Positions 40,988 to 43,124 of a stretch of 64,000 nt of DNA are shown here, in pieces; the stretch's first letter is position 1, and each line of letters opens with the position of its first letter. The position numbers and the translations under genes were made by a program. Under the pieces are notes generated by a model. That model had not been told where the DNA came from. It saw nothing but the letters and a program-made list of their open reading frames with translations, and ran no database searches. This DNA is from Citromicrobium bathyomarinum (GTDB lineage Bacteria > Pseudomonadota > Alphaproteobacteria > Sphingomonadales > Sphingomonadaceae): contig NZ_JAINWL010000001.1 in NCBI RefSeq assembly GCF_021021475.1, positions 248,001 to 312,000 on the forward strand, written 5' to 3'.

Positions 40988-41731
40988 TTACGCGGTTGCT
41001 TCGGCTGCCTCGGCAGGCGGATTTTCCATCTCGCCAACGCCCGGATCGTTCGCGCCGTCGCGGCGCGCCGCTTCGCCGAAAGCATCGCAGTACAGACGCA
41101 CGGCGCGTGCCGCATCGTCGTTACCCGGAACGGGGAAGGCGATGCCGGTCGGGTCGGTGTTCGAATCGAGCACCGCAACCACGGGAATGCCAAGCACGTT
41201 GGCTTCCTTGATCGCGAGATCTTCCTTGTTGGCGTCGATCACGATCATGACGTCGGGAATGCCGCCCATGTCGCGGATGCCGCCGAGCGAAAGCTCCAGC
41301 TTGTCACGCTCGCGGGTAAGGTTGAGCACTTCCTTCTTGGTCAGGCCGCTGGTGTCGCCCGAAAGCTGTTCTTCCAGCGTCTTGAGACGCTTGATCGAAC
41401 CGCTGATGGTCTTCCAGTTCGTCAGCATGCCGCCCAGCCAGCGGTGGTTGACGAAGTGCTGGCCGCTCATGCGGGCCGCTTCCGCCACCGGCTCCTGCGC
41501 CTGGCGCTTGGTGCCGACGAACAGGACCTTGCCCTTCGCCTGCGCGGTCGCGGCGACGAAGTCGAGCGCACGCGCCATCAGGGGCACGGTCTGCGACAGG
41601 TCGATGATGTGGACACCGTTGCGCGCGCCGAAGATGTACGGCTTCATGCGCGGGTTCCAGCGGTGGGTCTGGTGGCCGAAGTGTGCGCCGGCCTCGATCA
41701 GTTGCTGCATCGTGACGGTAGGAGCCGCCAT
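40988..41731 (-). CDS. rpsB: Small ribosomal subunit protein uS2
   Basis: A 247-aa ribosomal protein with the signature [31 protein letters not shown] shown here only in part, and a short acidic-Ala extension at the C-terminus. The reading frame runs upstream to 41857 but the ATG at 41731, with GGAAA nearby on the minus strand, gives the normal start [11 protein letters not shown]. First gene of the rpsB-tsf operon; the promoter must lie in the 41732-41930 gap. Confidence 0.97.
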
Positions 41732-42069
41732 AGGTATTTCCTTTCCGGTTGAACCTCTGGAAGGCGGTAACCCGCGGCGGAGAGCCCGCCTTGAGCACCG
41801 GTTTATGATGCCTTCCATGTGGATTATCCCGCGAATCCTTCCGCGGAAGGCGCGCACTTAGCGATCACCGGATCGAAAATCCAGCCTCAATTCGGCGCAC
41901 CTGTGGTGGCGATCGACCCGATTTGCCTTGACAGACGAGAACAAATGGAGAACATTGACGTTCATCAGCGGAACATCGTGAGTCGCTGATGGATTATCAC
42001 CACGTTTTCCACAGCCGGTCCAGCTCTTTTGCACCGGCTCTCTGGAGAATGAAGGTCGGAGTACAAACC
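41732..42069. other. Divergent intergenic region between rpsB and a small membrane-protein gene
   Basis: A 338-base gap without a convincing gene. Its left part must hold the rpsB promoter and leader. Its right part has a clear plus-strand promoter with a LexA-type box (41928-41956) and the leader of the gene at 42070. A short in-frame ATG at 41989 is possible as an alternative start of that gene but lacks a ribosome site. Confidence 0.7.
41928..41956 (+). promoter_or_regulatory. Promoter with an SOS (LexA) box between -35 and -10
   Basis: A perfect -35 TTGACA lies at 41928-41933; 17 bases on, AACATT (41951-41956) is a weak -10. The spacer holds GAAC-AAATGGA-GAAC (41939-41953), which is the GTTC-N7-GTTC direct repeat read on the other strand, the operator bound by LexA in alphaproteobacteria. 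LexA bound there would block the polymerase. Two more half-sites lie downstream: GTTC at 41960 and GAAC at 41971. Box seen directly; LexA control inferred. Confidence 0.72.
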
Positions 42070-42327
42070 ATGATCGCGTTCGCCATTACCTGCCTGCTTG
42101 TCGCCACTATCGTTGTTGCGCTGCTGTCGGCGACCGACAGCCTGCTGCGCGGCGCACGCCATTATCGTGCGCTCGCAGCGCAATTGCGGACCCTGCGGTG
42201 CGATAACGGCCAGGCAAGTGGTGCCGCAACGATCACGGGCGGCAACCGCCCCGCCCCTTCGCTTCGTACCCGTCGTAAGAACGCGCCGCATCGCGCCACG
42301 CCCGCAGGGCTGCGCGCCGCCGCCTGA
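42070..42327 (+). CDS. Small membrane protein, probably SOS-induced
   Basis: An 85-aa protein with one N-terminal membrane helix (MIAFAITCLLVATIVVALLSA), then a basic cytoplasmic tail rich in Arg, Ala and Pro. The ATG at 42070 has GGAG nine bases upstream; ATGs at 42049 and 41989 are in frame but badly spaced. I recognise no family. The promoter carries a LexA-type box, so the gene is probably switched on by DNA damage. In Caulobacter, SOS-induced small membrane proteins (SidA) stop division; a similar role here is possible but inferred only from size, topology and promoter. Confidence 0.65.
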   Translation: MIAFAITCLLVATIVVALLSATDSLLRGARHYRALAAQLRTLRCDNGQASGAATITGGNRPAPSLRTRRKNAPHRATPAGLRAAA

Positions 42328-42341
42328 TCTGTTGCCGACTG

Positions 42342-43064
42342 TTACTGCTGGAGGCCTTCGAGCTCGGCGGAAACGCCCAGCCGCCCCAGCACGGTCTCGC
42401 CCGCGGTCACCCGCTGGCCCATCAGCACCTGGGGAGAAGTTCCTGCCGGAAGGTAGAGATCGACCCTGCTGCCGAAACGAATCAGGCCGAGCCTCTGCCC
42501 CGCCGCTACGATATCGCCCGGCTTGACGAAGGGCACGATCCTCCGCGCGACCAACCCGGCGATCTGCGTCATCCCGATCACCACGCCATCGCTGCGCATC
42601 ACGACCAGATGCTGGCGTTCGTTCTCCTCGCTCGCCTTGTCGAGCTCGGCATTGACGAACTTGCCGGGAATATAGCTCATCCGCCCGATCGTACCCGCAC
42701 ACGGGCTGCGGTTGATGTGCACGTCGAAGACGCTGAGATAGATCGAGATCCGGGTCAGCGGCGCGTTACCAAGCCCGCCGTCATCACCGCGCATTTCCAG
42801 CGGCGGCTCGACCTGCGTAATCTGCGTCACGATCCCGTCAGCCGGCGAGACCAGTAGGTCGTCACCGCGCGGAACCACGCGTTCCGGATCGCGGAAAAAT
42901 GCGAGGATGCAAAGGGACAGGAAAGCCAGTGGCCAGGCGATCGTCTCCCACGCGAGCAGCGCCGCAATCAGTGAAACCCCAGCGCAGATCAGCGCGTACT
43001 TGCGCCCTTCCGGGTGGACCGACGGCAGACCGCCGCGCGCTTCTCCGCGACCGCGATTGTCCAT
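42342..43064 (-). CDS. psd: Phosphatidylserine decarboxylase proenzyme, short form
   Basis: Makes phosphatidylethanolamine. The 240-aa proenzyme has N-terminal membrane segments (about residues 25-60), the region [10 protein letters not shown], the catalytic HINRSPCAG and the self-cleavage site in [10 protein letters not shown], where Gly-Ser would give the pyruvoyl subunit. The short archaeal/alphaproteobacterial type fits. The ATG at 43064 is preceded by GGTGAG; a TTG at 43079 is less likely. pssA, often next to psd, is not in this window. Confidence 0.93.
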
Positions 43065-43124
43065 GATCTCACCAGCCAAGGCGTTTCGCCCCCGCTTCTG
43101 GTACAGACGCTTGCAGCAGGATCA

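Follow-up and report, generated by a model that had tools for sequence, protein, structure and literature searches.

The small gene and its promoter

A short open reading frame (ORF) of 85 amino acids was found, as the sequence-only reading had reported, on the forward strand at positions 42070..42327 of the window (the whole analysed stretch of 64,000 nucleotides from Citromicrobium bathyomarinum, C1:248001-312000). It opens with an ATG at 42070, and its product has a predicted N-terminal transmembrane (TM) helix, a basic tail and the C-terminus LRAAA. The ORF lies between two minus-strand genes which we take to be rpsB (ORF ending at 40988) and psd (ORF 42342-43079); these names, like those of uvrA and recA in relatives, were assigned from translations, without library matches. 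The psd gene is convergent with the small gene, which it faces, and belongs to a separate operon.

Upstream, a perfect -35 hexamer TTGACA (41928..41933, forward strand) is followed at a 17-base spacing by a putative -10 element, AACATT (41951..41956, forward strand), which matches TATAAT at three of six positions; the match is weak, and this promoter was absent from the list of a sigma-70 promoter scanner. The spacer holds an SOS box, the LexA operator GAAC-N7-GAAC (GAACAAATGGAGAAC, 41939..41953, forward strand), assigned from sequence and conservation, the second half-site of which is overlapped by the -10 element. Two extra half-sites lie past the second one, the first on the minus strand 10 bases further on (GTTC as read on the plus strand, 41960..41963) and the other on the plus strand at 21 bases (GAAC, 41971..41974). 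The hexamer, the box in the spacer and both additional half-sites are all present as first described. At the interval tested, the GTTC half-site occurs in only one of 100 leaders of relatives. A GAAC 12-24 bases past the box is found in 57 of the 100, compared with 1-21 for other 4-mers, and it is possible that this recurrent third half-site serves a second LexA dimer or hinders RNA polymerase. The leader of ~115 bases between promoter and ORF contains a DnaA-box-like word, TTTTCCACA (42005..42013, forward strand), matching TTWTCCACA, and a GGAG resembling a ribosome-binding site (42058..42061, forward strand).

The count of the bare motif GAACN7GAAC is in itself weak evidence and no different from chance, with one copy observed in the 64-kb window and at least one in 84 of 100 shuffles; in the whole genome (3.2 Mb) it occurs 69 times against 40 for the reversed pattern. 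Since 1.64 copies are expected per window, it could be supposed that a chance motif happens to precede a spurious ORF, but this is extremely improbable, as it is contradicted by the conservation with controls and by the purifying selection in all four close pairs described below. The genome's own SOS genes also bear on the matter. The motif GTTCN7GTTC is present at C1:16672-16686, 43 bases upstream of the coding match to lexA (from C1:16729, plus strand), and at 546079-546093, 126 bases upstream of the match to recA (C1:544994-545953, minus strand), and therefore the SOS operator of this organism has the GTTC-N7-GTTC form. The box at 41939 is more than a chance occurrence because it is conserved before orthologues and holds a fixed position throughout the family, with controls. 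Its identification as an alphaproteobacterial LexA operator was thus borne out, and the small gene is, on sequence grounds, very probably under LexA control. The claim that no other SOS gene lies nearby also held, as judged by the motif, of which the 64 kb contain this one copy.

Conservation in the Sphingomonadaceae

The gene was detected by protein search in seven of eight congeners and by synteny in the eighth (G004), and all eight carry the SOS box upstream of it. In the nine loci first aligned (the window's own, seven from congeners and one from another genus, G023), both the box and the TTGAC of the -35 are retained throughout. A single-sequence search found 11 of 60 genomes (the genus plus weak matches, and no further), and a profile search found 94 of 149 genomes at E<=0.1. 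The weak rows of the profile search are untrustworthy, and operator and synteny were therefore used instead.

A composite promoter pattern, TTGAC-N6-GAACAAA-N4-GAAC, was found in its strict form in 53 of 149 family genomes, with one copy per genome and none of the reversed control. When one mismatch was allowed it was found in 91 of the 149, with the reversed pattern in four genomes. An ORF encoding a TM helix (49-130 aa, longest reading) follows 51 of these 53 sites, and in 50 of 53 psd lies on the opposite strand beyond the small ORF; the exceptions L096 and L097 lie elsewhere, in genomes (G153 and G074) that still carry the gene beside psd. The 3' end of psd, which directly faces the gene in the window, is ~1 kb further off in most other strict-composite loci, and something therefore intervenes there.

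In a sample of the order, the family included, the composite was present in 48 of 147 genomes. Among the 22 loci from this sample (L104-L125), seven precede uvrA (L107-L110 from another family; L119, L120 and L122 from Sphingomonadaceae), two precede recA (L112 and L115), six lead to a small ORF (L117, L118, L121 and L123-L125) and seven are followed by neither uvrA or recA nor a small ORF (L104-L106, L111, L113, L114 and L116). A tighter composite scan across genome contigs gave at least 119 stretches. Among the matches listed, a small TM ORF was found at 68 of 71 loci assigned by title to Sphingomonadales, the other three being L217, which ends ~250 bases past the site, L234, which is uvrA, and L248, with no clear assignment. 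Four further loci among these matches have a small TM ORF (L155, L174, L191 and L222), and the Sphingomonadaceae-type small ORF occurs in none of the 44 remaining non-Sphingomonadales loci.

As a separate observation, in 15 of these 44 loci (among the matches listed) this composite SOS promoter is followed by a micro-ORF of ~32 aa with one TM segment and the consensus M(F/L)(R/K)(V/I/T)FVEEAAAL(A/I)S(I/L)TLFVGMI(A/G)(I/V)WAQ(V/L)IPQL. The hosts are mostly Bradyrhizobium with other Hyphomicrobiales (loci L130, L131, L139, L153, L168, L169, L179, L184, L185, L195, L201, L224, L232, L236 and L241), and the micro-ORF is a SidA-sized candidate. An unclassified alphaproteobacterial MAG (L142) has a distinct single-TM ORF of 33 aa downstream of the same promoter pattern.

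Genomes left unsettled by the pattern were approached through psd, because selecting by the box would bias the sample. The psd gene was sought in G004 and in 79 of the sample's 96 unsettled genomes, and was found in 79 of these 80; 17 of the 149 genomes were left out, six for lower completeness and 11 as the second species of a genus. The 3.5 kb past psd were read, contig permitting, for a box (no more than one mismatch) lying 15-260 bases upstream of an ORF with an N-terminal TM helix and a basic tail. This arrangement was found in 72 of 79 genomes, with an exact box in 67. The exact-box controls gave one genome (other strand), four (reversed half-sites) and none (scrambled) of 79, and the one-mismatch controls gave two, 23 and 13, respectively; the latter are high because the ORF is truly present. 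Boxes with one mismatch are accordingly weak evidence, and the weight rests on the exact boxes only. A half-site spacing of 7 was found at 91 sites, against 6-22 sites for each other spacing from 3 to 13, and TTGAC lies within 20 bases of the box at 62 of the 72 synteny-found loci, against 1.2 expected. Inspection by eye showed a TM ORF together with an exact box in four genomes missed by the filter (G122, G170, G164 and G061).

Overall, of the 132 family genomes examined from the sample, 128 have a box with a small N-terminal-TM ORF, four of them as judged by eye; the 128 comprise 51 from the strict pattern, two with one mismatch (G021 and G103) and 75 from synteny. In two of the others (G099 and G118) the gene is absent from the stretch read past psd, and the congener of G099, G167, has it away from psd (L099). 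In the remaining two, psd was not found (G032) or the contig ends early (G071). The sequence-only reading had made its claim depend on the box recurring before orthologues, and such recurrence was found both in the genus and in the family. Place, operator and C-terminus together offer a way to genes of this sort that sequence searches do not reach.

Features of the protein and leader

Comparisons started from 109 loci at which a small TM ORF had been found, less three of 32-33 aa that are not from Sphingomonadales (L139, L142 and L179). With identical proteins counted once, the remaining 106 loci yielded a first set of 100 unique proteins (49-111 aa, median 85), which grew to 172 (49-117 aa, median 80) when the synteny set was added, the start codons of relatives being assigned by rule. 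Both sets draw on 80 of the 119 composite-scan loci listed, the other 39 having been scored for ORF presence only. An alignment of 20 members shows no variation at D23, at R27 or at the two C-terminal alanines. Two congeners share 49-51% identity with the window protein, and the remaining sequences 20-35%. The sequence drifts fast while the layout stays, with a predicted N-terminal TM helix, an Arg-rich basic tail and the Ala-Ala end. The ORF is under purifying selection, as judged from dN < dS in four of four close pairs, in which changes are few and three of which are mutually related. Searches of the family libraries returned no meaningful match to the small protein.

An AlphaFold2 model gave a single helix at residues 2-46, confident to about residue 40, with a disordered tail, in keeping with the single-pass protein with a basic tail that had been proposed. 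The net charge of the tail averages +7.2 and is positive in 99 of 100 proteins, and the N-terminal flank has a charge of 0 in 94 and -1 in six. By the positive-inside rule, a basic tail with a neutral or negative N-terminal flank is predicted to lie N-out, C-in, so that the tail is probably cytoplasmic. Shortened members without the Ala-Ala end also occur, of 49 aa in Pacificimonas (L081/L200) and 35 aa in G061 (L325), suggesting that the TM core is enough by itself.

Arginine makes up 17% of tail residues, and this, the tail charge and the adjoining psd would suit an SOS membrane effector of another sort, whose Arg-rich tail would attach to nucleic acid, lipid or an enzyme and might, for example, tether the nucleoid or slow the phospholipid synthesis of the psd product. 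This is unlikely, as the tail sequence is poorly kept and psd is convergent, in another operon and, in most other loci, at the greater distance given above.

The C-terminal end is, besides D23 and R27, the best-kept part of the protein. Ala-Ala ends were found in 156 of 172 unique proteins and lacking in 16; these related proteins are not independent, yet the neighbouring tail sequence is poorly conserved. In the first set, 93 of 100 end in AA and 63 in AAA, while background long ORFs at the same loci do so in 23 and six of 323, respectively; in the synteny set AA ends 63 of 72. The organism's own tmRNA tag, ANDNEALALAA, likewise ends in Ala-Ala, and as described in PMC7652416 a terminal Ala-Ala is the principal element for ClpXP. 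The ssrA-like feature here is a C-terminal Ala-Ala within an end predicted to be flexible (disordered), and we take it as a candidate degron, encoded with the rest of LRAAA at 42310..42324 (forward strand). Were the topology reversed, a periplasmic C-terminal protease would read the Ala-Ala, in the manner of CtpA with SosA and YneA. So well kept an end might also act as a ClpXP decoy, the membrane-held Ala-Ala occupying the protease during SOS and sparing other substrates; this is very improbable, as nothing indicates that the amount made would suffice.

The leaders of the first set are rich in DnaA-box-like words. The word TTATCCACA is present in 27 of 100 leaders (0.1 in shuffles, maximum 1), and TTWTCCACA in 46 (0.2 in shuffles), with 46 forward occurrences and one reverse. 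It is found in 44 of 88 and 17 of 32 leaders of at least 85 bases, the short leaders being without it, and related words often recur by eye ~11-12 bases further on. There is no enrichment genome-wide (10 against 16 reversed), the copy in the window's leader being one of the 10. No consensus RNA structure was found in 36 leaders (mafft and RNAalifold), and a leader hairpin was on this account set aside, not disproved.

TTWTCCACA fits the DnaA box as defined in PMC6015884, where DnaA and LexA are both described as repressing SOS genes, and in E. coli uvrB sites for the two share one SOS promoter. That is a repair gene with overlapping LexA and DnaA sites, whereas here it is the leader that carries the DnaA-like words, and among the longer leaders only about half have them. 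A gene with two inputs and a timer, namely LexA cleavage, DnaA at the leader boxes reporting the replication state, and an ssrA-like C-terminus limiting the protein's life, can be put forward only tentatively. If true, it would be a Sphingomonadaceae counterpart of SulA and SidA that couples division to both damage and initiation.

The fixed orientation of the words also suits an RNA element, and with it a toxin. TisB and DinQ of Escherichia coli are described as LexA-controlled single-TM peptides, type I toxins with antisense RNA, and they share LexA control and a small single-pass product with the present gene. They are much shorter than the window protein. The gene could accordingly encode an SOS-induced membrane toxin, its helix lowering the membrane potential and bringing on dormancy, with the leader controlling translation, perhaps through an antisense RNA. 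Such a role is improbable given the protein's length of ~85 aa, its long disordered tail and the want of a common structure among the 36 leaders, and a self-limiting degron would better suit a timed brake.

Proposed role and known systems

On balance we favour, by analogy, a LexA-repressed, short-lived checkpoint protein of the inner membrane, a division inhibitor working like SidA, DidA or SosA. LexA lying over the spacer and the -10 element would shut out RNA polymerase, and upon DNA damage LexA would be cleaved and the ~85-aa protein made. Its N-terminal helix would anchor the protein in the inner membrane, with the basic tail probably in the cytoplasm, and the protein could hold the late divisome (most likely FtsW, FtsI or FtsN) inactive during DNA repair. 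The Ala-Ala end would make it a substrate for ClpXP or a protease of that kind, so that the brake on division might lapse soon after synthesis stops. Division is suggested as the target because in different lineages the small membrane proteins that serve this SOS function are unrelated to one another, and because the gene is near-universal in the family, under probable LexA control and fast-drifting in sequence on a fixed layout; the division reading rests on analogy, and hence only modest confidence is placed in it.

The Ala-Ala end, the DnaA-box-like leader and the family-wide spread of the gene go beyond the sequence-only reading. If the proposed role is true, it names a damage-induced division brake in a large, widely used family (Novosphingobium, Sphingomonas and relatives of Erythrobacter), and one of self-limiting design, an SOS inhibitor with an end like the organism's own tmRNA tag. 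A search of open-licence full texts turned up no article about the gene, nor any about a division inhibitor in Sphingomonadales, and the consulted text on Sphingopyxis granuli reports induction of lexA, recA and imu and names no gene like this one (PMC6472365).

Among candidates from known systems, the cytosolic FtsZ binder SulA was set aside, there being no SulA match in Pfam or NCBIfam and a membrane helix being predicted. SidA, SosA and YneA are described as SOS-induced small single-pass proteins which block division late (PMC4211646, PMC6851548, PMC13396833), and a single N-terminal TM helix and LexA control, both predicted here, are shared with these and with ChiZ. SidA had been said to have the size of the 85-aa protein, which was wrong, since SidA and DidA of Caulobacter crescentus are given as 29 and 71 aa, the former under LexA and the latter SOS-independent (PMC4211646). 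With relatives of 49-117 aa, the family does not fit SidA by size. The window protein resembles SidA and DidA, as these are described, in being a small single-pass inner-membrane protein of an alphaproteobacterium (theirs being damage-induced), and differs from them in its 85 aa, long basic tail and Ala-Ala end.

SosA of Staphylococcus aureus is described as SOS-induced, of 77 aa and with an N-terminal TM helix, its extreme C-terminus governing turnover (PMC6851548). The present gene is alike in its LexA box and in encoding a similarly short N-terminal-TM protein with a candidate turnover signal at the C-terminus; however, the tail of SosA is extracellular and cut by CtpA, while that of the window protein is predicted by charge to be cytoplasmic. 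YneA of Bacillus subtilis is described as an SOS-induced single-pass inhibitor, quickly degraded, whose TM segment binds FtsW (PMC13396833). It has a LysM domain outside the cell, and LysM was absent from the Pfam matches of 20 members of the window family, which therefore does not fit YneA or ChiZ by domain. In both of the tailed inhibitors, SosA and YneA, the tail is outside the cell, whereas the charges of the window protein predict it inside. If the reading is right, its product acts in the manner of the SOS-induced membrane inhibitors.
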